Source of the DNA: Clostridia bacterium
GTDB lineage: Bacteria; Bacillota_A; Clostridia; Christensenellales; Aristaeellaceae
Direction: 5' to 3'
NCBI GenBank assembly: GCA_017509065.1
Contig: JAFWQM010000013.1
Coordinates: 1-40,869, forward strand
DNA length: 40,869 bases
Shown here one piece after another: positions 3,270 through 37,928 of this stretch. The translations under genes were made by a program, and so were the position numbers. The notes beneath the pieces were generated by a model that had not been told where the DNA came from, did no database searches, and saw nothing but the letters and a program-made list of their open reading frames with translations. Position 1 is the first letter of the stretch, and each line of letters opens with the position of its first letter.

Positions 3270-4817
3270 TCATTGTTCCTCTGGTGTCGGCAAAAAGGAC
3301 AAAGAAAGGGAAACGGAATCGCGGGGGTTTTTATCGCGGGTGAGGGGGCCGGTTTTGGAATAGGTGACGCGGGAGAGGATGGAGCGCAGGAGGGCGTTTT
3401 GGTCGGCGGGGGTGGTGGCGTAGGGCCAGGCGTCCAGCACGCGGCGGATTTGGGGCAGGGCGCGGATGATCTGCGCGGCCTGGGATTCGGGCGGCTGGGC
3501 GGAAGCGGCGGTGAGGCGGGAAATTTCCGCTTCGCTGGCCGCGATTTTTTCATTCAGGGCGGTGCGGCGCTCTAAAAATTCTTCTATGGAGTAAATGCCT
3601 TTTTCCAGCAAATCCTTGGCGGCGGTGAGCTGGCGGCGGGCGGTGGCAAGGGCCTGGTTGGCGGCGGAAAGCTCCTGGGAGTGATCGACGGGCGCGGGGA
3701 CGGGCGGGGCGGCCTGGCCCTCGTACTGGATCACATAGCCGCGCAGGGTGTCCAGGATCACGGAGAGAACCACGTCCATATACGCGGAGGAGCAGGAGCA
3801 GACAGGGTTTTTGCAGCAGAGGAAAACGCCACGGGTATTATTGCGGCGGGTGATGGCATAGCCGCACAGGCCGCATTTGATCAGCCCGGCCAAAGGGTTG
3901 GAAATGTGCTTGTTGTCCACATGGGCGATACAGCGGCGGGATTCGGCCAGGGCGCGCACTTGATCGTATTCCTCGGGCGTGACGATGCCCTCATGCAGGC
4001 CCTTGGCCAGAATGTACCGGTCCGACAGGGGCCGGGCGGCCTGGAGCACGCCGTCCTTGTACAGAGGCTTGCTTTCGCGCTTCAGCCACTGGACATAGCC
4101 GGCATAAATTGGCAGCAAAAGCATCTTGCGAACGGAGTTAGCGTCCCAAGTGTGGCCGTTATAGGTGGTGCTGCCCATGGCGTTCAGGCGGTTGGCGATG
4201 GCAGCCGTGCCTAAGCCATGGTGGAGGTAGTAATCATAGGCCAGCCGGACGATGCGGGCTTCCTCCGGGATTTGCTGGAGGGTGTAGCCCTTGCTGCCGG
4301 TGCACTTCACCACCTGATAGCCGAAGGGGCGCTTGCCGCCCACGTAATGACCCTCCCGGACGGAGGCGGCGCGGCCCGCCTGCATGCGGCGCTTGATGGC
4401 CTTGTATTCACGGCGGGCCATGAATAGGGAAAATTCAAAGTATTCTTCGTCGATTTCGTTATTGGGATCGTAGGTTTTCGCGGGGGTGATGATCCTGGTG
4501 CCGCTGACGCGGAACGCCTGGGCCACAATGCCCTGGTCAATGGTGTCGCCGCGGGCCAGGCGCTCCACTTCGGTGCACAGCACGCCCTCCCACATGCCGC
4601 GCTGCACTTCTTCCAAAAGGCGCTGCATCATGGGCCGGGCGGCGATGGTGTCCCCGGACACGATCTCCCGATAGATGGCGGAGGGCGCCACGTCAATATT
4701 CAGGCGGGCGGCCAGGAGCGTGAGGGTGTGCAGATGGCGGGAGAGGGTTTCGCCCTCGCCGCGGGCTTCCGCTTCCAGATCGGCGCGGGACTTGCGCAGG
4801 TACATGCAGTAGGACAT
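3270..4817 (-). CDS. int: Large serine recombinase (phage integrase)
   Basis: A 515-residue site-specific recombinase that would integrate the phage circle into the host chromosome. The N-terminal resolvase domain carries the catalytic Ser10 within YLRKSR and Arg residues in EVERLARG (about 83-90). The recombinase domain spans about 160-300 (VGGKRPFGYQ, then IANRLNAMG and MLLLPIYAGYVQW). A zinc ribbon follows, with Cys315/Cys318 and Cys334/Cys340. A coiled-coil and C-terminal tail complete the usual large-serine-integrase layout and length. AGGAG lies 9 bases before the ATG on the minus strand. It is encoded opposite to its neighbours, between the lysis genes and hicAB. No excision factor is recognisable next to it. 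Confidence 0.93.
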   Translation of the reverse strand: MSYCMYLRKSRADLEAEARGEGETLSRHLHTLTLLAARLNIDVAPSAIYREIVSGDTIAARPMMQRLLEEVQRGMWEGVLCTEVERLARGDTIDQGIVAQAFRVSGTRIITPAKTYDPNNEIDEEYFEFSLFMARREYKAIKRRMQAGRAASVREGHYVGGKRPFGYQVVKCTGSKGYTLQQIPEEARIVRLAYDYYLHHGLGTAAIANRLNAMGSTTYNGHTWDANSVRKMLLLPIYAGYVQWLKRESKPLYKDGVLQAARPLSDRYILAKGLHEGIVTPEEYDQVRALAESRRCIAHVDNKHISNPLAGLIKCGLCGYAITRRNNTRGVFLCCKNPVCSCSSAYMDVVLSVILDTLRGYVIQYEGQAAPPVPAPVDHSQELSAANQALATARRQLTAAKDLLEKGIYSIEEFLERRTALNEKIAASEAEISRLTAASAQPPESQAAQIIRALPQIRRVLDAWPYATTPADQNALLRSILSRVTYSKTGPLTRDKNPRDSVSLSLSFLPTPEEQ

Positions 4818-8339: not shown

Positions 8340-9410
8340 GTGGCAAAAATTTGGCAGGCAGGACAGAAAAAAGAGACGGAAGCGGAGAAGACCGCACGGG
8401 TGGCGCACAACACACAGATGCTTTCTCTGCCATATACGGCAAAGGTAGCCGTCGCCGAGAGCCGGATTAGGGACTGGCAGACCACATGCGAACAGTACGG
8501 GAAGAACTACGCCGTGAGCGTGGGCGGGCTGGACAGCATAACGCTTCTTGCCCTTTGCCGGGAAGTGCTGGGGCACTGCGACGGTATAAGCGTTTCCATC
8601 CTGGAGGATAAGAGCATACAGTCCGTACACAAAGAAATGGGCGTGATCCCCATTAAGCCGCTGAAATCAAAAGTTCAAGTGTTAAGAGAATACGGGTACC
8701 CAATTGTCAGCAAACAGGCCAGCGCGAAGATCAGCCGATTGCAAACATCGGGCGACACAAGCCCCATCATCAAGGCATACATGACCGGCGAAGAAGGGGC
8801 TTGGGGAAAACACAAAACAAATCTGCGATTTAAGCTCCCGGACAAATGGGTGAAGCTGTTCGGCGGGCTGTACGGTGAGTTCCGGCCAGACCTTAACTGT
8901 CAGGTGGCCCCGTTCAAGGTATCCGATCAGTGCTGTTATTGGCTGAAAGAAGAACCGGCCAGGCGGTATCAGGAGGAACACAACATTTGGCCGTTCCTGG
9001 GCCTGATGCAGAGCGAGGGCGGGCGGCGGCAGTATTCACTGCGGATGCACGGATGCAACTATGTGGGGAAAGACACGGCCCGAAGCTGCCCGTTCAACTT
9101 TTTCAGCCGACAAGACTTGCTGCAACTCGCGCTGGACTTACACGTGCATGTCCCGGAAATTTACGGGGAAATCGTGCGGGACGCGGACGGAACGCTGCGC
9201 ACAACAAAGGCCCAGAGAACGGGATGCAGCATGTGCGGCTACGGCATCCACCTGGACAAGAGGCCGCATCACTTCGACCTGCTATATCAGAGAAACCCGG
9301 ACGAGTGGCGCTTTTGGATGTATGACCAAGGCTGGGGTGAAGTGCTGGACTATATCGGGGTCGGCTGGCGGCCCGAGGATTTGCCAGGAGCGCAAAATGG
9401 GCAAGCATAG
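8340..9410 (+). CDS. PAPS-reductase-like ATP pyrophosphatase (phage type)
   Basis: 356 residues from GTG 8340. It belongs to the adenine-nucleotide alpha-hydrolase superfamily that includes PAPS reductase, ATP sulfurylase and DndC. The PP-loop reads SVGGLDS (residues 60-66) where PAPS reductases have SGGKDS, a variant that I believe is usual for a phage subgroup. Later features are PLKSKVQVLREYGYPIVSKQ, a Cys pair in KVSDQCC, LMQSEGGRR and C296-x2-C299 in RTGCSMCGYGIH, which could bind a metal or cluster. GTG 8340 is chosen because GGGAGG lies 8 bases upstream and AHNTQMLSLPYTAKV follows about 20 residues in. The substrate is unknown; sulfur or nucleotide chemistry on nucleic acid is a speculation. 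Confidence 0.82.
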   Translation: MAKIWQAGQKKETEAEKTARVAHNTQMLSLPYTAKVAVAESRIRDWQTTCEQYGKNYAVSVGGLDSITLLALCREVLGHCDGISVSILEDKSIQSVHKEMGVIPIKPLKSKVQVLREYGYPIVSKQASAKISRLQTSGDTSPIIKAYMTGEEGAWGKHKTNLRFKLPDKWVKLFGGLYGEFRPDLNCQVAPFKVSDQCCYWLKEEPARRYQEEHNIWPFLGLMQSEGGRRQYSLRMHGCNYVGKDTARSCPFNFFSRQDLLQLALDLHVHVPEIYGEIVRDADGTLRTTKAQRTGCSMCGYGIHLDKRPHHFDLLYQRNPDEWRFWMYDQGWGEVLDYIGVGWRPEDLPGAQNGQA

Positions 9411-9440
9411 ACACATAGGATAGGGCGGGGGGGTGAGCAT

Positions 9441-9803
9441 TTGGCGGAATTGATCTGGCAGGCGGCCAACCCGGAGGCCGGGGGGCACGTGGCGACCTAC
9501 AACAGCGGCGGGGCCAGGGTGGAAATCCTGGTGGAGAAGGAACAGGGCGGGCGGATGTTATCCGCCCCTGACAAGGGGCAGGCCCCCGAATGGGTGCGGG
9601 TGGCCTACGGACTGGCGGAAAAGCGCATCCGGGAATACCTGGAGGAAACGGGGCGGATGCCGGGGGAAAAGCTGCTGGAGGATTTTCAGCGGGAAATGGG
9701 AAAGCGGCTGGATGATTTCATACGGGAGCCGATGCGATTCCCCTTCCGGCCCATGGGGCTGGCAGAGTTTGAGAGAGAGTTCAGAGCGGAGAGTGCAAAT
9801 TAG
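9441..9803 (+). CDS. Hypothetical early protein carrying an in-frame palindromic element
   Basis: 120 residues from TTG 9441, with GGGGGGGTGA just upstream. The protein appears as two parts, TYNSGGARVEILVEKE and EWVRVAYGLAEKRIREYLEE, joined by the peptide GGRMLSAPDKGQA. That peptide is encoded by the palindromic repeat at 9545-9578, also present at 13135 and 15541. The repeat adds codons without breaking the frame. The rest is predicted helical, with no known family. Function unknown. Confidence 0.65.
   Translation: MAELIWQAANPEAGGHVATYNSGGARVEILVEKEQGGRMLSAPDKGQAPEWVRVAYGLAEKRIREYLEETGRMPGEKLLEDFQREMGKRLDDFIREPMRFPFRPMGLAEFEREFRAESAN
9545..9578 (+). repeat. Palindromic element copy A, inside a coding region
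   Basis: GGGCGGAT (9549-9556) / ATCCGCCC (9560-9567) with a 3-base loop, preceded by GGGC and followed by CCT..ACAAGGGG, which can form a second small hairpin. It shares this layout with 13135-13160 and 15541-15573. It is read in frame as GGRMLSAPDKG. Confidence 0.85.
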
Positions 9804-10070
9804 GGCGCGGGGCGCCCATCATGCGGGCACATGAAGGCCATGGAAGGACGCCGTGGGTCGGTGAGATTCCGACTGCCCGCACCAGCAGGTTAGGACGAAC
9901 CGCCGATGACTGCCAGTGGCAGGGATTTCATCGGCGGGGAGATCACCCGAAACGAGCAATCTGCCCATGAAGGGCAGTTGCGACGATTGAGGGTGCGGAA
10001 AGCCTGCGAGTCCTCCTATCATTGGCAGCCGGGAAAGACCGGCCCGCGCCCTTTGAGCGGGGGGCGCGGT
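9803..10070 (+). ncRNA. Candidate structured RNA upstream of the tRNA
   Basis: About 268 bases with no convincing reading frame but many perfect stems. They are GGGCGC 9803-9808/9812-9817; TGCGGGCA 9822-9829 with 9874-9881, enclosing GTCGG 9857-9861/9869-9873; GCAGGT 9885-9890 with GCCTGC 10002-10007, enclosing the next two arms; CCGCCGATGA 9900-9909/9928-9937 with inner CTGCC 9910-9914/9918-9922; CACCC 9944-9948/9991-9995 enclosing GCAA 9956-9959/9978-9981 and CTGCCC 9961-9966/9972-9977; GCCGG 10028-10032/10039-10043; and CCGCGCCC 10044-10051/10062-10069. The stretch GTCGGTGAGATTCCGAC and the following CTGCC..GGCAGGGA recall parts of cobalamin riboswitches, but the conserved boxes are incomplete and no B12 gene follows. 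It lies directly before a tRNA, where phages often carry ornate RNAs. Stems are seen by eye; expression is inferred. Confidence 0.6.
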
Positions 10071-10073
10071 TAT

Positions 10074-10149
10074 GGGAACGTGGCGCAATGGTAAGCGCAT
10101 CCGCCCCATAAGCGGCTGGGTCCCGGTTCAAATCCGGGCGTTCCCACCA
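10074..10149 (+). tRNA. tRNA with CAT anticodon (Met or lysidine-type Ile)
   Basis: Complete cloverleaf: acceptor GGGAACG (10074-10080) / CGTTCCC (10139-10145), discriminator A, encoded CCA (10147-10149). D-stem GCGC (10083-10086)/(10095-10098) with loop AATGGTAA. Anticodon loop CCCATAA (10105-10111), anticodon CAT. T-stem CCCGG/CCGGG with TTCAAAT. The first pair of the anticodon stem is a U-C mismatch. CAT may read AUG, or AUA if the first base is changed to lysidine; the sequence alone does not decide. It lies in the early operon just after the structured RNA. Confidence 0.92.
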
Positions 10150-10179
10150 AGGCATTAAATAAGCAGGAGTTGAGGAAAG

Positions 10180-10800
10180 TTGAAAATCGACAAAATCAAA
10201 AAGCTGATCCTGGATCAGAAGGGCGTGGCGATTCTGACCGGGGAGCGGGGCCAGCAGTGGATCGGCGGCAAGGACTGGATGGTGCGGGTGGACGAAGGCC
10301 TGCATCTGACGCCCAAAAGCGTGAAGGGGCTGTTTGACTTTTCCGTGGAGCAGATGGACAAGCTGCGCATTGAGGAAGCGGCCCTGGAAACCTATCCCCT
10401 GTGGCCGGTGCTGCGGCGGAACGTGAACAACATGCAGGTTGGCAGCCTGAACATCGACAATTACGGCGGCATTGAAATGCTGATTTTCAGCGGCAAGGTG
10501 TACCTGCTGGAGCAGAAGTATATCCGCTGCGCCGTGGCCCGGGAGGATTACCGGGAATACATGCTGGGCTGGGACGCGAAGGATCAGCCGCTGATCGTCA
10601 TCAACGACGGGATGATTTTTGCCGGGAGCGCCAGGCCCATGCCGGAAAGCACCTGCCAGCTGCTGCTGGAGCAGATGAAATTCATGTGCAGCCTGCGGCC
10701 CGGCGGCACCATGGATCCTTCGCAAGCGCAGGATGACAATTCGCAAGCGCAGGATGGCATGGACGGCGAACAGCTGGACATGGAACGGCTGGGGCAGTAA
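10180..10800 (+). CDS. Hypothetical early protein
   Basis: 206 residues from TTG 10180, with AGGAGTTGAGGAAAG upstream. A compact alpha/beta protein by appearance, with VAILTGERGQQWIGGKDWMV at the N-terminus, later DNYGGIEMLIFSGKVYLLEQ, then a variable acidic tail containing a short duplication (SQAQDDN-SQAQDG). No motif I can name. It starts 30 bases after the tRNA in the early operon. Similar genes seem common in Clostridia phages, but I do not know a function. Confidence 0.68.
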   Translation: MKIDKIKKLILDQKGVAILTGERGQQWIGGKDWMVRVDEGLHLTPKSVKGLFDFSVEQMDKLRIEEAALETYPLWPVLRRNVNNMQVGSLNIDNYGGIEMLIFSGKVYLLEQKYIRCAVAREDYREYMLGWDAKDQPLIVINDGMIFAGSARPMPESTCQLLLEQMKFMCSLRPGGTMDPSQAQDDNSQAQDGMDGEQLDMERLGQ

Positions 10801-14079: not shown

Positions 14080-14302
14080 TGCCATTTGCCGCGATAGCAG
14101 CGCGGCATAGACGCGGGGGCTCCCAGCCGCAGGAGAAACCGTGTATAGTAGTAGTAGTAGAACCCCAAAGTTACGAATGCAACAGGCCATTGGAAAAGCC
14201 ATGCGGCACAGAGCCGACCGCCCACGCGAACCGACAAGCCTGTCGATGAAGGGCAGGCCCCCACCGGACGCGGCGGGCGGGGCGCGGAAAGGAGGATGGA
14301 AC
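14080..14302 (+). other. Gap in the early operon; no gene supported
   Basis: 223 bases without a convincing gene. It holds a GTA trinucleotide run (five units near 14145-14160). Two reading frames cross it but lack ribosome sites and have low-complexity products. Confidence 0.5.
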
Positions 14303-14468: not shown

Positions 14469-14717
14469 TCTATGGGGAGAATTGAGTTTCTACTATATAA
14501 ATGGGAAACAGGCAAAGAAAAATTGGGCGGGATGCCCTGACCGGGCTTGTATCGGGTATTCACAAATCACGGTTCTTGTTCAGAGTTGAGAGTTGAGATT
14601 GGGAACGCGGAGAGGGAACCGGAGCGGTAGCAGTACATGCTCTGGGGGGTCCGGGGGGCGCGGGCGCAGAGCGGCCCCCCGGCCAGGGGGACACGAACGA
14701 GACAGGAGGAGCAGACC
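14469..14717 (+). other. Non-coding region before the HUH replication gene, with a strong GC hairpin
   Basis: No gene is supported here. There is an AT-rich stretch with TATATAA (14494-14500) that could be a -10 box but lacks a good -35. Further on CCGGGGGGC (14651-14659) pairs perfectly with GCCCCCCGG (14674-14682) over a 14-base loop. Reps of the HUH class nick a hairpin origin that is usually close to their gene, so this is a candidate origin; an attenuator is the alternative. Confidence 0.5.
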
Positions 14718-15554
14718 ATGCGGACATACATACCGGAGGCGGAGGAGTACGCGCTCGATCAGCCCATGCACCGGAGCAGCAAGGGCGTTTTATTGCAGCG
14801 AACCAAAACCGTGGTAGCTGGGGATCACCTGGACGCGGACATATACCCGGTTCTCGATTGGCAGTACAGCCGGGAGGCGGGCAAGCGGGGAAAGACGACG
14901 GAGCAGATGCAACGTGCAAATTTTGCACGTGCCTTTCGGACGTTCACACAGATCGGGAACCTTAATTTCGGGGAGGGGGATATTTTCGGGACGTTCACGA
15001 GCGCCGAGGGATGCAGCCTGGAGGAGTTTGCAAAAATCAAGCGCCGGTTTTTCGATAGACTGAGGACGAAGTACAGAAAGGCGGGCGTGCCGCTGGAATA
15101 CATGGGGATCGTGGAGAGTACAAGGCAGGGGCAGCAGCACCATATACACATGATTCTGCGGGGCGGGGCCCTGACGCGGGACGAGGTAGAAAAGATATGG
15201 CGGGAAGGGGTGGCCAACACGCGGGCGGTGCAGGTAAAATTCGAGGACAAGGGCGTGGAGGGCCTGTGCCGGTATATGACGCAGCACAAAGAGGGCCAGG
15301 AGAAGCTGATGAAGCGCAAGTGGTTCGCGAGCAAGGGCCTGAAAAAGCCAAGGGCGACCTACAACGACCGGAAATTCAGCCGAAGGGCCAGCCAGAAGAT
15401 TGCGGACGCGGTGAGGGAGGACGCCAAGCGGGAATTTGAAAAGCGCTATCCGGGATGGCGGCTGGTGGATTATACGGTACACTATTCGGATTTTCTGCCG
15501 GGGGTGTACGTGCACGCCCATATGAGGAGAGACACGGCAAGGGCGGGCGGATAA
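14718..15554 (+). CDS. HUH-endonuclease replication protein (rolling-circle Rep-like)
   Basis: 278 residues; AGGAGG 8 bases before ATG 14718. The central region has the HUH-type metal site H142-I-H144 (QQHHIHMILRGG), preceded by VPLEYMGIVESTRQGQ and followed by VEKIWREGVANTRAV, then LCRYMTQH with a candidate nicking Tyr186, then KWFASKGLKKPRATYN. This order matches rolling-circle replication proteins of the G2P/microvirus/plasmid type. Such enzymes nick one DNA strand at an origin and stay bound to its 5' end. It is the only recognisable replication gene: no polymerase, primase or helicase is seen. The C-terminus ends in the third palindromic element (RAGG stop). Terminators separate it from the packaging genes. 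Confidence 0.85.
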   Translation: MRTYIPEAEEYALDQPMHRSSKGVLLQRTKTVVAGDHLDADIYPVLDWQYSREAGKRGKTTEQMQRANFARAFRTFTQIGNLNFGEGDIFGTFTSAEGCSLEEFAKIKRRFFDRLRTKYRKAGVPLEYMGIVESTRQGQQHHIHMILRGGALTRDEVEKIWREGVANTRAVQVKFEDKGVEGLCRYMTQHKEGQEKLMKRKWFASKGLKKPRATYNDRKFSRRASQKIADAVREDAKREFEKRYPGWRLVDYTVHYSDFLPGVYVHAHMRRDTARAGG

Positions 15555-26813: not shown

Positions 26814-29800
26814 ATGAGCGAAAGATTTAAAGATAAGCTGAAAACGCTTTACAAGGACGCGCAAGCAAAGGGCCGGGGGGCCCTTTCTTTGAATGAAGGA
26901 ACAAAGGGCACGATATCACCAATGGAAAAAGCCATGCTTGCACAGTTGGAAAAGGATAAGGAGCAGCAGGCCGAAAAAAAAGAAACGCTGAATATGAATC
27001 CGTATAAAACCGTCGGCGTCAACCTGAAATTTCAGAGCATATACAGCAGACTGGAAAGCGCAAAGAAAAAATACGGCAGTAGTGCTGATATCTATGCGGA
27101 CGCCATGCGCCTGACGGACGCTTTTGGAAATACCGTAAGAGCAGCCTATAATCTTCACAAAGGATCCGACGCAAAAAACTATTTAGACATCGCCCAGCGC
27201 ACCTTGGACACCGAAATGGAAAAGACCCTGCTGGATTATAAATACCGGGGGAAGACGGCGGCGGCCATGGAAGAAGCGCTGGCAAATTTGGGCTACCAAT
27301 CCATGAAGCAGGTGGAAGCAAACAACCAGCAGAACGTGATCGCCCGGGCGGCGCAGATGGGCGCGGCGAATCTGCCAGAAGAACAGCGGCTTTTGATCGA
27401 CAACCTTTCCCGATTGGCAGAAATTGGGGAAAATGTATATGAAAACGGCGGCGCAATGAGCCTGAATTGGGACGATGCTGCTTTATGGCAGTATGCAATG
27501 AGACAGCCAGGCACGGAATGGATGGGCACGGGAAGCGCGACTTTGCAGCAATACCAAAATTGGGCAAATGAAGAAGCCCAGCGCATCAAAAACGGTTATG
27601 TTTTGGATTACGACACGGCGGACAAATACATGGAGGGCGTGCCGGGATATGTGTTTGCCCGTGAGCATCAGGGCGATTTGACCCCTTACATGACGGCGGC
27701 GGGCAATATTTCCGGGCTGATTGATAAGCTGACCGCCAAGGGCTGGGACGCACTGACCGCGCCGGAGCAGGAAGCGCTTTATCAGGCGCTGGAAAATGTG
27801 GACGTGGACGGCGCGAGCCTGGGCCGTTATCCTTTGCCGGAAATGACCAAGGAGCAGATCGCCGAAGCCATGGGCGGCCTCGACGAAGCGACGCGGGAGA
27901 GCCTGAACCAGCAGGGCGCGCAGTGGGCCGAAGCCCTGGACAACGTAAACGGCATTTTCAGCGCATACGCCCCCACGAAAGAGCAGCAGGCGCTTTTGGA
28001 TTTGTACCGGGCCACGCCGGAAGGGGCGCAAGCCTATGTTGAGGACGCAGCGGGGACGAGCGAGGAGCAAAAGGCGAAGGATAACAACTGGATGGTGGAG
28101 CGGCGGGAAAAATTTGCGAAAGTTCCAGAAATGCCAAATTATGCAAGCTATTCTGAACCAGACGAAGATTACCGGCCCAAGGATAAGTATATCGACAATG
28201 TTTATAGAGTAGTCAATGGGTATTGGATTCCTGAAACGGTGGATGAAGCGCGGGAGTATTTGATATACACTCTGATGGATGATGAAGAGAAAGGAATATT
28301 CAATGCGTTAGCATATACCGGAGAATTCAAGGAAGCAAAAGAATATCTGGAATATATCAAATATGACTTAAATGAACGGGCTAATCAAAATGTAGCAAAG
28401 TATGTTGAAAAAGATGTAAACAGCGGGACTTGGGGAGCAATAAAGCAGAGCCTGTTTTCCATACTTGCAAGCCTGACAAGGCCTGTTGGTGCGCTGGATA
28501 TATACGCTCAGGAGATGGCCCAGAAAATGGGATGGAAAACAAGCCCCATCGATTATAATAGGGGACAAACCAGCGGCATTTGGGCAGACACGGCACGGGA
28601 AACGGTACAGAAAAATGTGGATTGGGCCGTTAATATTTTGGGCCAGGACGTGGATTTGTTTGATTTCCTGTACGGCACGGCCATGAGCGGTGTTGACAGC
28701 GCGGCGGCGGGGGCAATCGGCGGCGGCGGATGGCTGGGCGGGGCCATTCTGGGCCTTGGCGCGGCGCAAAGCACCATGATGGATATTAAAGAACGGGGCG
28801 GCAATGACAGGCAGGTGATCCTTGGCGGCACGCTGGCAGGCATTTTTGAAACGCTGTTTGAAAAAGCCAGCATTGGGAAATTTTATGATGAGATGAAGCA
28901 CCTGGGCAGGCGAAGTGGAAAAGAAGCACTGAAAAATGTCCTTGCACAGGCGGGAATCAACTTTTCAGAAGAGTTTTTCACCGAGCTTGCGGATATGATC
29001 GCCGATGAAAAGATCATGGGCGAATTAAGCGAAAACCAAACCAAATATAACGAGTATATACGTCTTGGCATGAGCCCGGATGAAGCCAGGGCGCAAGTGG
29101 CAGGCGACACCGCTCAAAGGCTGCTGGAAGCCGGATTTGGTGGCGCGCTGATGGGCGGCGCTTTCGGGTTGGTTTCCAATGTGACCAGCGACGTGGCAAC
29201 CGGGAAAATGGACAAATCCACGGGCGCGGCGATCAAGCCGGACACGCAGGAGACGCTGAAAAAGATTGCGGGGACCCTAAATGGAAAGGCTAAAACGCTG
29301 GCGGACAAATACCAGCCCGGCAAGGCGACGGCGCAGCAGACGGGGGAACTGTTCCGGGAAACCATAAAGGGGCTTTCGGGAGTATACCGGGAAACGCTGG
29401 TGGAACGGGTGGCCCAGGACTTCAAAAAGGACGGCATTTCCAACGACGCGGCCTTTGCCATCGTGGAGATGATGGCGGGGCAGCAGCTGGACAGCGCGCA
29501 GGTGCAAGCCCTGGCACGGGACGGAAAGGCCATGGACGCGCTGTATAAGGCCATGGGCATGCAAAACCCCGCAGCAAAAACGGCAGCCGATGTAAAGGCA
29601 ACGGCGCGGACGCAAACGGCCAAGAACGCCGAAAACGTGCTGGACTTTGCGCCCATGCCAGGATTCGAGGAAGAAACGGAAGCGACCAGCGCCGTGGAGC
29701 AAGCGGCACAGAATGCGCTGCAAAAAACGGCGGCGCGGCAGGCGGAAGCGCAGACAGCGCAGCCTGCCAAACCGGCGGCGCAGGAAGCCAAGGCGGAGGC

Positions 29801-32800
29801 GAAAACGGCACCGGCGCAGCAGCCCCGGGCGGAGCAACAGGAAAGCGGGAAGATGCCCGAAACACTGGAAAAAGCCTTTTCTTCCATCATCAGCAAATAC
29901 CGCAACGGCAACATCCTGCGCACGGACGCGGAGGATGCGGCGGCGGAAGCCATCGACAAGCTGGCGAGGCAGACGGGCGTGAAGGCGTGGAGCTGGGACG
30001 AAAAAGCAAAAGGGGATTTCCAGCCCATGAACCGCACGGATGCGGCAGCGCGGATGCAGGAAAAATACGGCGCGGTTTTCCAGGAAATGCTGGAGGAAGC
30101 GGACCGGCAGAACCAGCGGGAGGAAGCGGAAGGCAGAATTCCCGCCGATTTAGAGGAAGCCTTTGCCGGGATCATCGAGGGCGTGCTGAACGGCGGCATG
30201 GACGAACGGGACGCCATGGACAGGGCGGCGGAAGCCATCGATGAAAAGGCAAAGAAAAAGGGCTGGAAGGTTTGGGACTGGGACAAAAATTCCCAGGCAG
30301 ATTTCCCCGCGCTCACGCGCACGCAGGAATCCGCCCAGATGCAGCAGGAATACAGCGCGGCTTTCCAAAGGATGCTGGAGGACGCGAAGAAAACGGGCAA
30401 GGTGGAGCTGGCGCCCCGGGAGAGCGTGACCGTGCCCAAGACCGAAGAAACCCAGGAAACGGCCACCGGCGAGGCTGACGCGGCCCCTGCTGCGGCAAAT
30501 GAAGAAGCGGCGGCAAAGATACAGCCCGAAGAAGAAACGCAGCAGGCGGCCCAGGAAGCCCAGGAAACGGAAGCGGAAACCGCGCAGGAAGAAAACGGCA
30601 TGGAAGCCATCGGCGAGGAAGCCGCCGCAGAGGAAAGCACCGCCACCGAAACGAAAGGCAATGATACGCTGATGGGCGGCGTGAAGGAAATCCTGAACGA
30701 TGCGGAGAGCGGCGCGGCGGAAGCGCGGATGGAGGACGGCAGCACCGTGCCCCTGGAGGAAGCGGGGCTGACCAAGGATCAGCAGCAGGTGGCGCAGGCG
30801 GCGGCGGACTTGCCCCAGGAAGCGCAGGCGGCCATGACGGGAGCGTATACGCCGGGCACAAACGCCCGGGACTACGCGCGGGGCTTCCGTTCCCTGTACA
30901 AGCAGGCGGCGGCGGGGGCAAGCCCGAACAGCATGACCAGCCTGTATGCCGATACCATGACGCAGATTCAGCGGGGCGCAGCCATCAAAGCGGGGCAAAA
31001 GGCCTATGAAAAGGAGCAGGCCCAGGCGGCAGCGGACACCCAAAAGACCCTGGAAAAATTAAAGAAAAAGGGAGCCGCTTTCCAATTCTTAGCCGACCGG
31101 AACCAGAAAGGCAGCGGCGTGTATTTCGCGCGCGTTCGCCAAGGCGTCAGCGATGCGGCGAAAGCCACCCTGATGGTGGCCGACAAACTGGCGAAACAAT
31201 ACGGCTTTCAGGTGCGGGTGTTCGATCACATGGACGCAAACGGCAGCTATGAAACGGGCAGCAACGTGATCAACGTGGCGCTTGACGCAGAAGGGAACAT
31301 GATCGGCCGCACTTTGAGCCATGAGCTGCTCCACTATGTAAAAGAATGGGGCAAGGAATCCGGCGAAAAGCTGCAAACCTACATTTTGAACGCCCTGAAA
31401 AAGGCCGATGGGTACGATTTCGACGCGAGAAAAGCGGACATCATGCGGCAGTACCGCACGGAAAACGGGCAGCAGCTAAGCGATGCCGAAGCGGAAGAAG
31501 AAATGGCCGCCGAGGGCATGCTGGATGTGATTGACACAGAAGAAAACCTGCGGGACCTGTTCAAAGAAACGCAGGACAAGGGCCTGATGGAAAAAATAAG
31601 GGACTGGCTGGCGGACGCGGCGCAGAAGATCAAACAGGCGCTGAACGATTTGGCCTGGAGCCACCCAGAAGTCCGCGCGCTGAAGGATGACGCGGATTAT
31701 TTCCAGCGCCTTTCCGATATGTTCCGGGCCGCGCTGAACCAGGCTTCGGAAAACTACCGCATGAGCCAGCGCAATCTTTATGATGCCGCCAAGGCGGACC
31801 CGGACGTGCAGGCCTACGTGGAAGCCATGGGGCAGGCTGTGACGCTGGAGGACGCGAAAGCGGAGGCGGACGCGCTGATCACCAGCATGTACATGAGGGC
31901 GGAAAAAAAGTGGATCGAGCAGCACCCGGAGGAATACGAGCAGGGCCTTGATAAATTCCGGGAGGCGCTGCGCCGGTTCACCAGCGGGCAGGATAAGAGC
32001 CTTTTCTTCGCCCTGAACGCCCAGGGCCTACACGTGCCCACCCAGGCGCTCTATCCCGTGCTGGCCTACGCCGGGCGGCAGATGGTGAGCGCGGAAACCC
32101 AGGCGGAGAAAGCCGGGGGCGGGGAGCGCAAGGAGCTGCGGGCCGGGGCCATGGACGCGGAATACATGCGGGCCGTGGAGAACGAGGACGAGGAAACGAA
32201 ACAGCGGATCGTGGACGAGGCGGCGGAAAACGCCATGCAAAATTCCAAAATCCGGGACGAAGATGGAAAACTGCTGCCCGTTTACCATGGAACGTCCGAA
32301 ACTTTCACCGAGTTTGATATGAGCAAAGGCCGCGCAAACATGGATATACAAGGCGCGTTCTTTTCTCCATGGGATGACGACGCGAGAGGCTATGGCGAGA
32401 ATGTGGGAAAATATTACCTGGATATTAAAAACCCAGCCTCTGAAAGCGTGGGCTATCAGGCGCTGCGCCGGTTCCAGGGCCAAAACGAGGCAGGGAAAAA
32501 GGCAAGGGAATACCTGATCAGCCAGGGCTATGACGGCGTAAATAACGAGGACATGGAATATATTGCTTTCTATCCCGAGCAAATCAAATCCGCCGACCCG
32601 GTGACCTACGACGACAAGGGCGAGGTGATCCCGCCCAGCGAGAGGTTCAACGAGGGGAAGGGGGATATACGGTATAGCGTAAGAGCGAATATCAATACAA
32701 GCGATAAACAAATGGAGGACAACAAAAAAATCGTTGCAAACATGAAATCAGTAAAAGATTTGCAAGGGAATGAATTTGTAAAAGGAGAGGATTTACTGGA

Positions 32801-35800
32801 TAATGTAAGTGAATATTATGGAATAAAACCTAATCAACCGGTGATATGGTATAATGATGATATTGGAGATGTAAATGTAACAAGACGCGGAATAAGAGAT
32901 TCAATTTGGCATGGTATTGGAGAAGATAAAGCAGCGGCTTTTGCGGCGATAAAAGATGTAATAGAAAAAGGGCGCTTAGTTCATTATGAAAAAGACTGGA
33001 AAGGAAGGGGATATGATACTTGCGTTATTGCAGCACCAATTACAATAAACAAAGAAAATGGAAAACCAATGGATTATATAATGGGAATACAGGTAAAAAG
33101 ATCGGGAGACACACAAAAATATTATATCCATGAGGTGCTTTTACAAAAAAATGATGGGTCTGAAAGCCGTTCTACCAGGACGGTCAATACTGATCGCAAC
33201 CCTGGCGGCGATAGACCCACCATGAATAGTATACTCGAATCCGTAATGAAATACAAGGGGGAAAATGAAGGTCAGAAAAATAATCCAATGACAAAAGAAT
33301 CGCGCCGCGCGTCCACGGACGACGCCGAAACCCAGGAAGCGCTGGACGAAGTGACGGAGGATCCCGAGCTGTACGCACAGGTGGCGGCGGACGCGGACAT
33401 CCGGGCGGCGTGGCAGTTACTCATGCGGCTGCACCGGCTGACCACCCAGGGCGGGGAAAACGCGCTGATCCAGAAGGGCGCTTTTGAAAAACGGCTTTCC
33501 GACATCATTCAGAAGATCGCGGACAAGACCGGCACCAAGTACGGGCCCGTGAAGCTGCGGAACGCCCTGCGGAAAATCTATCAGGCCATGGAGCAGAGCC
33601 AGTACAGCCCCGGAGAAATCCTGCAATACGCCAGGGACTTGATGAAGGACGTGCTGGACGCTTCGCCGGGGGTGCTGGTGGAGCAGGACGAAACCACAAA
33701 GGAAATCCTGGCCGGGCTGAAACGGCGGCGGTTCTACCTGACCGACGACCAGAAGAACGAGATCAAGAACACCTACGGAACCATTTCCACCTTTACCAAC
33801 AAGAACTTCGGAACGCTGCACGTGGTCAAACGGGACGCGAAAACCGCCAGCTTAGAGGACGTATGGCTGGAGGACCTGGCCCACAAACTGCCGGGCGTGT
33901 TCGCGGAGGACACCAGCCCCCTGGACATGCCGGGCATTCTGGACGCATGGCTGGAGACCACGAAGGAAAAGAAGTACGCGGGCGAGTTTGGGCACAACAT
34001 CGGGGCATACGCCACCGATTTGGCGCTGAATGCCATGCTGGACTTTTACGACGTGCCGGGGGCGCTGAAAACCAAAGCGGATATCCGGGAAGGATTCAAG
34101 GAGCGCATTAACCAGCAGCGGGCAGAAATCAACCGCCTGAAAGAAACGGCCCGGGGCGCGGTGGATCAGGCGCGGCTGCAATATGAGGAGCGTTACCGCC
34201 AGCGGGTGGAAAAGGCCCAGGAGCGCAGGTTGGAAACCGAAAAGAAAAAGAAGCTGCGGGGCCAGATCACCCGGGACGTGCGGGCCATCAACAGCCTGAA
34301 CGTGCGAAACAGCGACACCAGCCACGTGCCCCAGGCCATGCAGGCAGCGGCGCTGAAAGCGGTGGAGCCCTTCCTTTCCGGCAGCGGCGTATTCAGCGGA
34401 ACGGAAATGCTGCGGCTTGCCAGGGAATACAAGCTGCTGGAGGAACGCAAGGGCGAAATCGGCGGCTTTGACGAAGATATTTTGATCACGATCGAAAGCC
34501 TGCCCGAAAAACTGAACGGGCGGCGGCTGGCCCAATTGACCGAAGGGGAGCTGCAAGAGCTGGCCGACACCATGGGCAACCTGCGCAAGATCATTGCCGA
34601 CGAAAACGAAGCATTCCTGAACGGGCGAAAGACCACCGTGGATGCGCTAAGCGGACGCCTGAAAGCAGACATGCGGGCCAAGGGCCAGGCGAAGCAGGGC
34701 CCCATTGCCAAGGCGGCGCGGATGTTCCAGTACCTGGAGGAAACCCCGGCGTACTTCGCCGACCGGGTGGGCGGCGTGATCAAGGATATGATCGGCGACT
34801 TGTTCAAGGGGGAAACCGAATGGGCGGACGTGATCGACGCGGCTATCAAATACAAAAACGAAATGCTGGAAAAATACCACGTGGCGGACTGGATCAACGA
34901 TAAAAAGCACGCCCGCTTTACGACCCAGCACGGCGACCAGATCGAGCTGAACAAGCAGGAAGCGCTGACCCTGTACGCCCAGTGGAAGCGCGAAACCACC
35001 AACAAGCTGCAAAACGGCAACCATCTGCGGGTGGGCGGCTTCATGTACGGAAAGGGAACGAAATACGAGGGCGTGGACACCCTGCGGCCCCATCCCCTGA
35101 CCGACAGCGACATGCGGATGATCAAAAGCTATCTGACGGAGGAACAGATGGCATTTGCCGACGAAATGGTGAAGTACCTGTCGGAGGACATGTCAAAACT
35201 GGGAAACGAAGTGAGCATGCAGCTGTACGGGTACAATAAATTTTCGGAGCCTTATTATTTCCCCTACAGCACGGACAAGCGGTATTTGCCCAGCGATTTG
35301 ACACAGAATGGCGCGGAACCGGTAAAACAGACGAAAAACAAAGGATTCACCAAGGCCCTGATGCAGAACGCGGCCACGCCCCTGATCGAGGGCAATTTCA
35401 TGGACATGTGGGGAAACCACGTGAATGAAATGGCGCTTTACAAGGCCTTTGCAGTGGCACAGGACACCATGAGCCGGGTGATCAATCAGCGCGTACCGGG
35501 GGAAATCCGCACGGACAGCAAAACCGGCGAGGAATTCGTGGTGACGCCGGAAAGCAACAAGATCGAAATGGAACGGGCGCTGGGCGAGGAGGGCATGAAA
35601 TACCTGACCACCCTGTTCCGGGACATCAGCGGCGGCGTGCGGGCCGATGAACGGGGCAACATCATGGCAAAGGGCCTGAGCCTGTTCAAGAAGGGCGCGG
35701 TGCTGGGCAACCTTTCCGTGGTGCTTCAGCAGCCCACGGCATACGCCAGGGCCATGAACATGATGAGCCCAATCTATCTGAACCTGGTCTCCAAGGAAAC

Positions 35801-37928
35801 GGCGAACCTTGCCAGGAACGTGAACGAAATGTATCAATACTCCGGCGTGGCGAAAATCAAGAAAATGGGCCGGTTTGATACGGGCACAGGCAGGAGCGCC
35901 ATTCAGCTGCTGACCGAAGGAACGGAGGATATGAACGCGGCCCAGAAGGCGCTGGCCGGGATCGACAAATGGGCGGGCATCGGCGCGGAAAAAGCCGACG
36001 AATGGACATGGGGCCTGCTGTGGGGCGCGGTGAAGAAGGAAACGGAACACACCCACCCGGAATTGAAACCGGGCTCGGAAGCCTTCCTGCGGGCCGCGGG
36101 CGAGCGCTTCAACGATATTTGCCGCCATACGCAGGTATACGACAGCGTATTAAGCAAGAGCACATGGATGCGCAGCAGCAGCCTGATGGATAAATCGGTT
36201 ACCAGTTTCATGGCGGAGCCGACCCTTTCCCTGAATATGCTGCTGGGGGCCATGCAGAAATACAACCAGCCGGGCGGAAAGAGAAAGATCGCCTGGGCGG
36301 CGGGCACCTACGCGGTGAGCAGCCTGCTGGTGGCGCTGGCAAAATCCATTGCCACGGCAACCAGGCGGAAGAAGGACGAGGGCCGCACGTGGCTGGAAAA
36401 GTACGTGGCGGAGAGCGCAGGCAATTTCCTGGACGAAATCAGCCCCTTCGGCATTGCGGGCATGATCCCCTACGTGCGGGACATCATGAGCCTGTTTGAG
36501 GGGTACGATGTTCAGCGGAATGATATGGACGCCTGGCAGCAGCTGGCAAAGGGATTCAAAGCCCTGCAAAAGTATGTAAACGGGGAAACCGATTCGCTGG
36601 AGGACACGATTCAGAACGCCCTGGGCCCGGTGGCGAACCTGTTCGGCGTTCCGTTCAAAAATATGTACCGCGATTTGGAATCCATCATCATGCAGCAGTT
36701 CGGCGGGGCCGGCGCGGACGAGCCAACCACGGCGCGGGACCTGAAATACAGCGTGCTGGACAACCTGAAAATCGGCCCCTTCGACCTGTGGAATGGCGGA
36801 AACAAAGCATACTATGAACGCATGGAGCAGGCGTTGATCGCCGGGGACAACGACAAGTACGAGGAGCTGCGGGGGTATCTGGAGGAGACCAAAAAGGTGA
36901 AGCCCGACGCAATCAACAGCGGGGTAAAGAACCAAATCAAGACCAGCTGCACCGACGGCGCGATCAGCGAAGAAGAGGCCATGAAGCTGCTTGAAAACAA
37001 CTTCGGCATGGAACACGACAAAGCCTGGGAAGAAGTGGAAAAATGGAAGCAGCAAGCGGCCCACGAAGATGACGAGGAATACAGCTATTCCAAATATCGG
37101 GAAGTGCTGGACCTGGTAAAGGAAGGGGGAGACATAACAGCGGCATCCCGGAAACTGACGGAGAACACCAGGACCACCGAAAAGGACGTGCAAAGCAAAA
37201 TCCAAAGCCAAATCGGCGAATGGTACAGAAGCGGAGAGCTGACGAGGCAGCAGGCGGAAGAAAAGCTGAAAATGTACACAGACGTGAAAAGCAAAGACGA
37301 TTTGCATTGGATGCTTGACAAGTGGGACTATGAAAAAGATCATCCCGACGACAATTACAGCAAATACGTGGACGTATTCGATGCTGTAAAGAACGGTAAG
37401 CCCATCGACGCCGCCATGCAGGAAATGACGGATTACGGCTACGAAGAAAAGGACGTGCAAAGCCAAATCCGAAGCAAGATCAAGGAATGGTATCTTGGCG
37501 GAGAGCTGACGAGGCAGCAGGCGGAAAACAAGCTGCAAGAATATGGCAACGTAAAGGACAAGGACGAGCTGTACTGGACCATGGATCAATACGACTTTGA
37601 AAAGCAGAACGCAGGAAAAAAGGACGCCAAATATGAGCGGTACGCTGCTTTCAACGAAGCCGTAGAGACGGGCAAGGACCTTTCCGCCACCGTAAAAAAG
37701 TATACAGATCACGGAGTGGAAAAGAGCACCCTTGCGAGCCAGATCACCAGCCAGTTCAAGCCACAATACCTGGCCATGCTGCAAGCGGGAAAGAAAAGCG
37801 AGGCTTCGGCGCTGAAAAATCACCTGCTGCGGGCCTATGAAGTGCTGGGCTATGACCGGGCGAAAAAGAGCAAGGACATTGACGACTGGATCAAGCAGGA
37901 GCAGAAGAAGCAGAGCCAGAAGAAATAA
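26814..37928 (+). CDS. Giant internal virion polyvalent protein (metalloprotease, ADP-ribosyltransferase-like and nuclease-like domains)
   Basis: 3704 residues; AGGAGG 8 bases before the ATG. In order: helical N-terminus; Gly/Ala-rich hydrophobic segments near 620-680 and 760-790 (membrane-insertion type); a linker with Ala/Gln/Glu; two tandem 80-residue repeats (about 1016-1098 and 1111-1192); a zincin-type site HELLH (1503-1507); a VYHGT-type ADP-ribosyltransferase-like domain (from about 1820; PVYHGTSETF, then GAFFSPWDDDARGYGEN); an AT-rich LPD3/PBECR-like nuclease-type domain (about 1950-2140); long helical regions; a hydrophobic part near 3150-3220; four C-terminal units of about 90 residues (one from 36805, then YSKY 37081, YSKY 37351, YERY 37630). 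Such proteins are ejected with the DNA and act in the new host cell. Domain names are by motif; the frame is certain. Confidence 0.85.
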   Translation: MSERFKDKLKTLYKDAQAKGRGALSLNEGTKGTISPMEKAMLAQLEKDKEQQAEKKETLNMNPYKTVGVNLKFQSIYSRLESAKKKYGSSADIYADAMRLTDAFGNTVRAAYNLHKGSDAKNYLDIAQRTLDTEMEKTLLDYKYRGKTAAAMEEALANLGYQSMKQVEANNQQNVIARAAQMGAANLPEEQRLLIDNLSRLAEIGENVYENGGAMSLNWDDAALWQYAMRQPGTEWMGTGSATLQQYQNWANEEAQRIKNGYVLDYDTADKYMEGVPGYVFAREHQGDLTPYMTAAGNISGLIDKLTAKGWDALTAPEQEALYQALENVDVDGASLGRYPLPEMTKEQIAEAMGGLDEATRESLNQQGAQWAEALDNVNGIFSAYAPTKEQQALLDLYRATPEGAQAYVEDAAGTSEEQKAKDNNWMVERREKFAKVPEMPNYASYSEPDEDYRPKDKYIDNVYRVVNGYWIPETVDEAREYLIYTLMDDEEKGIFNALAYTGEFKEAKEYLEYIKYDLNERANQNVAKYVEKDVNSGTWGAIKQSLFSILASLTRPVGALDIYAQEMAQKMGWKTSPIDYNRGQTSGIWADTARETVQKNVDWAVNILGQDVDLFDFLYGTAMSGVDSAAAGAIGGGGWLGGAILGLGAAQSTMMDIKERGGNDRQVILGGTLAGIFETLFEKASIGKFYDEMKHLGRRSGKEALKNVLAQAGINFSEEFFTELADMIADEKIMGELSENQTKYNEYIRLGMSPDEARAQVAGDTAQRLLEAGFGGALMGGAFGLVSNVTSDVATGKMDKSTGAAIKPDTQETLKKIAGTLNGKAKTLADKYQPGKATAQQTGELFRETIKGLSGVYRETLVERVAQDFKKDGISNDAAFAIVEMMAGQQLDSAQVQALARDGKAMDALYKAMGMQNPAAKTAADVKATARTQTAKNAENVLDFAPMPGFEEETEATSAVEQAAQNALQKTAARQAEAQTAQPAKPAAQEAKAEAKTAPAQQPRAEQQESGKMPETLEKAFSSIISKYRNGNILRTDAEDAAAEAIDKLARQTGVKAWSWDEKAKGDFQPMNRTDAAARMQEKYGAVFQEMLEEADRQNQREEAEGRIPADLEEAFAGIIEGVLNGGMDERDAMDRAAEAIDEKAKKKGWKVWDWDKNSQADFPALTRTQESAQMQQEYSAAFQRMLEDAKKTGKVELAPRESVTVPKTEETQETATGEADAAPAAANEEAAAKIQPEEETQQAAQEAQETEAETAQEENGMEAIGEEAAAEESTATETKGNDTLMGGVKEILNDAESGAAEARMEDGSTVPLEEAGLTKDQQQVAQAAADLPQEAQAAMTGAYTPGTNARDYARGFRSLYKQAAAGASPNSMTSLYADTMTQIQRGAAIKAGQKAYEKEQAQAAADTQKTLEKLKKKGAAFQFLADRNQKGSGVYFARVRQGVSDAAKATLMVADKLAKQYGFQVRVFDHMDANGSYETGSNVINVALDAEGNMIGRTLSHELLHYVKEWGKESGEKLQTYILNALKKADGYDFDARKADIMRQYRTENGQQLSDAEAEEEMAAEGMLDVIDTEENLRDLFKETQDKGLMEKIRDWLADAAQKIKQALNDLAWSHPEVRALKDDADYFQRLSDMFRAALNQASENYRMSQRNLYDAAKADPDVQAYVEAMGQAVTLEDAKAEADALITSMYMRAEKKWIEQHPEEYEQGLDKFREALRRFTSGQDKSLFFALNAQGLHVPTQALYPVLAYAGRQMVSAETQAEKAGGGERKELRAGAMDAEYMRAVENEDEETKQRIVDEAAENAMQNSKIRDEDGKLLPVYHGTSETFTEFDMSKGRANMDIQGAFFSPWDDDARGYGENVGKYYLDIKNPASESVGYQALRRFQGQNEAGKKAREYLISQGYDGVNNEDMEYIAFYPEQIKSADPVTYDDKGEVIPPSERFNEGKGDIRYSVRANINTSDKQMEDNKKIVANMKSVKDLQGNEFVKGEDLLDNVSEYYGIKPNQPVIWYNDDIGDVNVTRRGIRDSIWHGIGEDKAAAFAAIKDVIEKGRLVHYEKDWKGRGYDTCVIAAPITINKENGKPMDYIMGIQVKRSGDTQKYYIHEVLLQKNDGSESRSTRTVNTDRNPGGDRPTMNSILESVMKYKGENEGQKNNPMTKESRRASTDDAETQEALDEVTEDPELYAQVAADADIRAAWQLLMRLHRLTTQGGENALIQKGAFEKRLSDIIQKIADKTGTKYGPVKLRNALRKIYQAMEQSQYSPGEILQYARDLMKDVLDASPGVLVEQDETTKEILAGLKRRRFYLTDDQKNEIKNTYGTISTFTNKNFGTLHVVKRDAKTASLEDVWLEDLAHKLPGVFAEDTSPLDMPGILDAWLETTKEKKYAGEFGHNIGAYATDLALNAMLDFYDVPGALKTKADIREGFKERINQQRAEINRLKETARGAVDQARLQYEERYRQRVEKAQERRLETEKKKKLRGQITRDVRAINSLNVRNSDTSHVPQAMQAAALKAVEPFLSGSGVFSGTEMLRLAREYKLLEERKGEIGGFDEDILITIESLPEKLNGRRLAQLTEGELQELADTMGNLRKIIADENEAFLNGRKTTVDALSGRLKADMRAKGQAKQGPIAKAARMFQYLEETPAYFADRVGGVIKDMIGDLFKGETEWADVIDAAIKYKNEMLEKYHVADWINDKKHARFTTQHGDQIELNKQEALTLYAQWKRETTNKLQNGNHLRVGGFMYGKGTKYEGVDTLRPHPLTDSDMRMIKSYLTEEQMAFADEMVKYLSEDMSKLGNEVSMQLYGYNKFSEPYYFPYSTDKRYLPSDLTQNGAEPVKQTKNKGFTKALMQNAATPLIEGNFMDMWGNHVNEMALYKAFAVAQDTMSRVINQRVPGEIRTDSKTGEEFVVTPESNKIEMERALGEEGMKYLTTLFRDISGGVRADERGNIMAKGLSLFKKGAVLGNLSVVLQQPTAYARAMNMMSPIYLNLVSKETANLARNVNEMYQYSGVAKIKKMGRFDTGTGRSAIQLLTEGTEDMNAAQKALAGIDKWAGIGAEKADEWTWGLLWGAVKKETEHTHPELKPGSEAFLRAAGERFNDICRHTQVYDSVLSKSTWMRSSSLMDKSVTSFMAEPTLSLNMLLGAMQKYNQPGGKRKIAWAAGTYAVSSLLVALAKSIATATRRKKDEGRTWLEKYVAESAGNFLDEISPFGIAGMIPYVRDIMSLFEGYDVQRNDMDAWQQLAKGFKALQKYVNGETDSLEDTIQNALGPVANLFGVPFKNMYRDLESIIMQQFGGAGADEPTTARDLKYSVLDNLKIGPFDLWNGGNKAYYERMEQALIAGDNDKYEELRGYLEETKKVKPDAINSGVKNQIKTSCTDGAISEEEAMKLLENNFGMEHDKAWEEVEKWKQQAAHEDDEEYSYSKYREVLDLVKEGGDITAASRKLTENTRTTEKDVQSKIQSQIGEWYRSGELTRQQAEEKLKMYTDVKSKDDLHWMLDKWDYEKDHPDDNYSKYVDVFDAVKNGKPIDAAMQEMTDYGYEEKDVQSQIRSKIKEWYLGGELTRQQAENKLQEYGNVKDKDELYWTMDQYDFEKQNAGKKDAKYERYAAFNEAVETGKDLSATVKKYTDHGVEKSTLASQITSQFKPQYLAMLQAGKKSEASALKNHLLRAYEVLGYDRAKKSKDIDDWIKQEQKKQSQKK

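Follow-up and report, generated by a model that had tools for sequence, protein, structure and literature searches.

What occupies the stretch between a 120-aa open frame ending at 9803 and a tRNA-Met gene starting at 10074 in the window, by which we mean the whole 40,869-nt stretch of clostridial DNA analyzed here? The preliminary description saw a structured element there rather than a gene, and this has been borne out. The stems that it listed are genuine, and the 3 long-range stems that it named lie where it placed them and are present in predicted folds, with TGCGGGCA at 9822 pairing with 9874, GCAGGT(T) at 9885 pairing with (A)GCCTGC near 10002, and CACCC at 9944 pairing with GGGTG at 9991. 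The folding energy of positions 9800-10073 (274 nt) is -135.2 kcal/mol, compared with -111.5 +/- 5.8 kcal/mol in 200 dinucleotide shuffles, none of which was as low (z -4.1). The reverse strand of the region is equally extreme (z -4.75, 0 of 200 shuffles as low), and folding energy by itself therefore cannot tell the strand.

Units of the folded region upstream of tRNA-Met

These stems had been grouped into one multi-branch fold. The stems themselves are present, but they belong to separate units, and the region reads better as a row of neighboring units (a tRNA-like fold, a structured core, GC hairpins, and tRNA-Met) than as one RNA. A single 268-nt RNA is ruled out since the relatives that were found have only the core, about 9892-10001, in common. 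The features of the locus are as follows:

9803-9817, plus strand: short GC hairpin GGGCGC/GCGCCC (predicted fold); by eye, the same bases have an alternative partner, CCCGCGCCC, near 10043-10051
9823-9884, plus strand: tRNA-like fold without a D arm (predicted fold, geometry scan)
9885-9891, plus strand: 5' side of a closing stem, 7 bp with 10001-10007 (predicted fold)
9892-10001, plus strand: core of a dispersed structured repeat (88% match to a chromosome; 124.9 bits to covariance model R1, the window core itself being 1 of the 32 training rows of R1)
9900-9937, plus strand: helix P2, 10 + 5 bp with a 3-nt loop and a 5-nt bulge (covariation)
9944-9995, plus strand: helix P3, which has an internal loop (GAAA/ATTGA) and an apical stem at 9956-9981 (covariation)
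9995-9999, plus strand: GCGGA, the conserved 3' end of the core (at other loci target copies begin within a few bases of it)
10001-10007, plus strand: 3' side of the closing stem (predicted fold)
10028-10043, plus strand: hairpin GCCGG-GAAAGA-CCGGC (predicted fold)
10044-10069, plus strand: GC hairpin 5' of the tRNA, without a T run (predicted fold)
10074-10149, plus strand: intact tRNA-Met (CAT) with encoded CCA (ARAGORN; Rfam RF00005, 65.5 bits)

The end of the core lies 72 nt from the start of tRNA-Met. Between 9400 and 10250 no terminator was called on the plus strand and no sigma-70-type promoter was found.

The unit at 9823-9884 has a 7-bp acceptor-like stem (9823-9829 with 9874-9880), an anticodon-like arm with a 7-nt loop (9839-9855), and a T-arm-like hairpin of 5 bp with a 7-nt loop (9857-9873), directly 3' of which stands the second strand of the acceptor, and it ends in ACCA (9881-9884). 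A geometry scan of both window strands, with a geometry defined after the fold had been seen, returned this unit as its sole match; the same geometry arose in 1 of 3,000 shuffles of 9803-10073, and with NCCA behind it in 0 of 3,000. Neither ARAGORN nor Rfam called a tRNA at 9823-9884, and the relaxed ARAGORN modes gave noise. tRNAs usually carry TTC in the T-loop and T33 in the anticodon loop. By eye, the T-loop of this unit lacks TTC and its anticodon-like loop lacks T33, which makes a remnant possible; the unit may thus be a tRNA-like fold or what is left of one.

A reshaped cobalamin riboswitch, or another phage riboswitch, had been considered for this region and doubted, and the doubt was right. 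The run near 9856-9873, which we take to resemble a cobalamin segment, is the T-arm of the tRNA-like fold, the cobalamin model (RF00174), run at loose thresholds, scores 9.9 bits where 31.5 are required and does so over a different stretch (9991-10061), and relatives of the core stand at many unrelated loci, so that despite the resemblance a riboswitch is extremely improbable. In the Rfam scan that had been proposed, only tRNA reaches its cut-off in the whole window. Weak matches to Twister-sister (22.2 bits against a cut-off of 34) and DUF3800-XI (also under its cut-off) were rejected. GOLLD and ROOL are structured RNAs found beside phage tRNAs, and one large phage RNA of this sort had been considered here. 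The window differs from them in having no match to either in Rfam 15 at the curated cut-off and in having a core that is dispersed in host chromosomes: instead of one large RNA, it holds a tRNA-like unit and one copy of a repeat of about 110 nt that is scattered through bacterial genomes.

A dispersed family of structured repeats

Relatives were reached through the phage terminase, from the best 80 of 193 viral loci and the best 80 of 159 genome loci. Window positions 9893-10000 match the chromosome of a Christensenellaceae metagenome-assembled genome (L098) at 88% over 109 nt, between long open frames, and a search with the piece matching L098 found matches in 12 of 12 Clostridia genomes (G002-G013), which were picked for a closely related terminase and are not a random sample. 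Covariance model R1 found at least 438 copies in these genomes, all 12 of which carry between 10 and 59 (45, 59, 44, 23, 27, 32, 42, 10, 28, 55, 32, and 41, from G002 to G013), the total being a lower bound because at most 150 candidates were scored per genome. The complete genome G104, a single contig of 3.26 Mb, holds 49 copies by model R2. Window positions 9892-10001 are thus shown to be one copy of a family of roughly 105-112 nt in which 2 covarying helices are conserved, as are the joining sequences, and which is present in tens of copies in some genomes of Christensenellaceae and other Clostridia.

The range of the family is patchy. Matches were found in at least 15 of 120 genomes of the family of G002 (including G002 and G005), in at least 7 of 200 of its order (including G002), and in at least 1 of 398 of its phylum (G002 itself), all lower bounds since 31, 19, and 9 candidates per genome, respectively, were scored in these searches. 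How far a count can fall short is illustrated by G026, with 0 matches by R1 and 15 by R2. Neither of the 2 copies scanned (window and L098) matched an Rfam family, and no description of the repeat was found among the matches listed in the open-access literature, a scope that takes in few of the subscription papers.

The structure of the core is backed by covariation, for which the preliminary description had proposed a test. Alignment A5 contains 32 copies including that of the window, after 3 of the 35 rows of its predecessor A4 (those of L200 and L205 and one of the L207 pair) were dropped for damage to the 3' end or apical loop. Its stem cells are 99.5% paired (of 1,016), and 16 of the 32 pairs show changes on both sides, against 5.1 in shuffles. 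Control structures slid along A5 were 33-56% paired, a comparison that favors the unslid version because the structure was derived from the same sequences. In the larger alignment A6 (95 copies, 90 distinct), whose rows were fitted to the model and so are biased toward it, 97.2% of cells are paired, 28 of 32 pairs have changes on both sides, and both-side changes outnumber single ones by 451 to 22, summed over pairs.

G-U pairs are rare, at 7 of 1,011 in A5 and 26 of 2,830 in A6 (0.7-0.9%), compared with 7 of 95 when acceptor and T stems from 8 tRNAs of G104 are counted. Together with the excess of both-side changes, this rarity hints at a role for the palindrome on both strands or as single-stranded DNA, or at its correction during replication, in which case such correction could yield part of the both-side changes. 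The closing stem (9885-9891/10001-10007) is weakly supported and not clearly a family-wide feature, the flanks of 93 copies pairing with a mean energy of -7.79 kcal/mol against -6.93 kcal/mol for mismatched flanks.

Genomic settings of the copies

Core copies occur in both orientations relative to their neighbors. The frames flanking 34 host copies are minus/minus in 9 cases, plus/plus in 6, plus/minus in 9, and minus/plus in 7, with no frame on one side in the other 3; placement between genes is assessed just roughly, since 18 of the 34 overlap a mechanically called open frame of at least 90 aa. Copies can also abut head to tail in tandem, the period being near 104. Within mutS2 (L332, G104:C1:1833000-1835500), one copy stands in frame; its core covers about residues 326-361, and residues 333-371 lack an equivalent in the solved MutS2 to which the frame aligns. 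This is evidence of insertion, as expected of a MITE- or RPE-like repeat, in a single case judged against a distant homolog rather than the empty site of a close relative.

At L204:1700-2700, 2 cores stand tail to tail, each preceded by a sigma-70-like promoter and followed by a 30-aa frame, and a convergent promoter-like pair lies between them (all by eye). The 30-aa peptides match no Pfam or NCBIfam model. By eye, the arrangement resembles the layout of a type I toxin-antitoxin system.

The link to tRNA genes differs between genomes, being strong in G104 and weak in G002. Of the 35 element clusters in G104, 8 are no more than 250 bp from a tRNA, in every case downstream of it, where uniform placement predicts 0.23; under the assumption that 10% of the genome is admissible, the clustering has a P of about 0.005 at 350 bp. 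In G002 just 2 of the 45 copies have a tRNA within 500 bp, and both precede it, by 138 and 148 nt; tRNA targeting is therefore not general.

In 5 of 81 copies, the sequence that begins directly 3' of the core duplicates one lying upstream, and in 4 of these 5 the duplicated stretch is the 3' part of a tRNA. The 5 loci are spread over 3 genomes (G039, G104, and G124), and their target copies range from 16 to 67 nt:

L277 (G039): 67 nt, identical; tRNA-Val tail and terminator-like hairpin; score 134
L276 (G124): 55 nt, one mismatch; no tRNA called; score 105
L288 (G104): 61 nt, with mismatches; tRNA-Met tail; score 72
L321 (G104): 22 nt, identical; tail of the adjacent tRNA; score 44
L320 (G104): 16 nt, one mismatch; tail of the adjacent tRNA; score 27

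Among 959 mismatched pairs serving as the null, the 99% point was 26 and the maximum 53, so the 2 short tRNA cases (L321 and L320) are weak on score alone. The 99% point is exceeded by 14 of the 81 copies, 7 of which start at the core end. Two of these 7, L286 and L287, were left out because the repeats there are neighboring element copies. tRNA copies also begin farther out at L298 (27 nt, starting 42 nt beyond the core end) and at L302 (15 nt, starting 73 nt beyond it). At the window copy flank duplication is not significant; the copy ranks outside the best 26 of the 81.

Besides the window, 2 viral contigs with phage genes carry copies. L306 has one R1 match along with tail-sheath and tape-measure matches, and L310 has three R1 matches, the weakest at 22 bits, along with endolysin and baseplate matches. 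Near 839-858 of L312 (minus strand), a P3-like half lies inside a phage reading frame (SDPNESSETS..., by eye), and L312 has no R1 match. Two of 4 pattern scans of viral contigs gave no match. One scan returned 17 stretches, of which 2 belong to the L001 and L002 contigs and 15 look like chance by eye and were set aside; a further scan returned 7 stretches, 2 of them with R1 matches. The neighboring 206-aa protein at window 10180 has 17 matches including itself; pattern search of viral and genome contigs gave no locus for it, nor did tblastn in phage records, and a relative was found via the terminase in 2 near-identical contigs.

A hairpin common to window 9961, window 14240, and L002:6730 was rejected as a motif of the family, R1 missing the last two. 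A 17-nt hairpin, CTGTCGATGAAGGGCAG, recurs at window 14240-14300 and L002:6730-6785, in both places with GCGCGGAAAGGAG after it. This hairpin is similar to the apical part of P3 and stands 5' of 2 small peptides of 36 and 33 aa, membrane-like by eye.

Origin of the repeat and its likeness to known elements

The presence of the repeat in dozens of copies, and its position behind tRNA genes at 8 places in one genome, suggest a small mobile element. We infer that the core is probably a MITE-like, nonautonomous structured repeat that is moved in trans and was picked up by the phage as a passenger. Its hairpins would then be the probable recognition part for the mobilizing enzyme, a duplicated piece of the target would come to lie beside the GCGGA end of the core on insertion, and in at least one genome tRNA genes would be favored as targets in their 3' part. 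The phage copy would have landed between the tRNA-like remnant and tRNA-Met, where it would travel as a passenger and may also serve as a transcript spacer. A bolder version, which we regard as doubtful, would make this a new class of mobile element, in which the hairpin core of about 105 nt is itself the mobile unit, multiplying in tandem with phages as carriers, and in which the GCGGA end inserts at the T-arm boundary of a tRNA that is left intact with its copied tail behind, a putative enzyme reading the folded strand.

The repeat could also be a functional multicopy small-RNA family whose transcribed copies bind a host protein, with the phage copy as a decoy or regulator expressed together with the tRNA. 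Strong covariation and conserved unpaired joining sequences would fit such a role, as would the sigma-70-like promoters ahead of both L204 copies and their 30-aa frames (hexamers by eye) and a TATATT-like box upstream of some other copies (by eye). The occurrence in both orientations, the tandem copies, and the in-frame copy in mutS2 suit mobility better, and no sigma-70-type promoter was found in 9400-10250 of the window, so that we consider a small-RNA family rather unlikely.

Two further readings name the machinery that would move the repeat. The rarity of G-U pairs would suit hairpins acting as single-stranded DNA, as at the end of an IS200/IS605-like element, and structured RNAs linked to TnpB are known, among them the RAGATH-18-derived RNAs (PMC11061315); the core might accordingly be such an element end, or it might serve an RNA-guided nuclease element of the TnpB/IscB type as guide or scaffold RNA. 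This is distinctly unlikely, given that the Y1 transposase model (PF01797), which IS200/IS605 or REP/RAYT elements lead one to look for, was found in just 1 of 6 carrier genomes searched and does not track the repeat, and that neither the window copy nor that of L098 scored above the cut-off of any Rfam family of this kind. A SINE-like retroelement, with the core as the 3' part that a reverse transcriptase recognizes, would account for the varying length of the target copies, which run from 16 to 67 nt and start at the 3' end of the core, and for the varying upstream spacer. It is very unlikely all the same, since reverse transcriptase (RVT_1) does not track the repeat: it was found in 5 of 13 carrier genomes searched, but neither in G104 with its 49 copies nor in G002 with its 45.

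A nonautonomous mobile repeat has several counterparts, to all of which the core repeat is likened by description and not by sequence. The bcr1 repeats of the Bacillus cereus group are of similar size and have a conserved secondary structure. The BOX, RUP, and SPRITE elements of pneumococcus have high copy numbers. These and bacterial MITEs resemble the core repeat in small size, structure, and bunching, being described in a review (PMC10969869) as small, with stable secondary structure, and bunched together. Rickettsia palindromic elements (RPEs), according to the same review, are about 150 bp long and occur in many copies, in frame in coding genes (PMC10969869). The core repeat is likewise short, occurs in many copies, and is found once in frame in a gene (mutS2), but it belongs to other bacteria, a location in genes is not known for most of the copies examined, and it has strongly conserved joining sequences and, in one genome, a link to tRNA 3' parts. 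As is characteristic of MITE- and RPE-like repeats, the core is a short conserved unit present in many copies, counted here in genomes chosen by terminase.

The family now has a covariation-backed structure and a model, it reaches tens of copies in single genomes of some Clostridia from rumen and gut, and phages are shown to carry it. The association of this small structured repeat with the 3' parts of tRNAs is a link that can be tested, and the repeat may account for isolated folded stretches next to tRNAs and for unusual in-frame insertions in proteins of these bacteria.

Some minor observations concern the phages. The tRNA at L002:6342-6417, also present at L001:2892-2967, is assigned by ARAGORN a four-base anticodon (ggca), and with it an enlarged anticodon loop, and L036:8624-9362 holds 3 phage tRNAs with diverged T-arm-like pieces in between (by eye). 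The window phage encodes an integrase with invertase-like similarity at 3270-4817, and at 14637-15554 a Rep-like protein (PF23343, REP_ORF2-G2P), in a tailed phage. Positions 26814-37928 of the window form one open frame of 3,704 aa.
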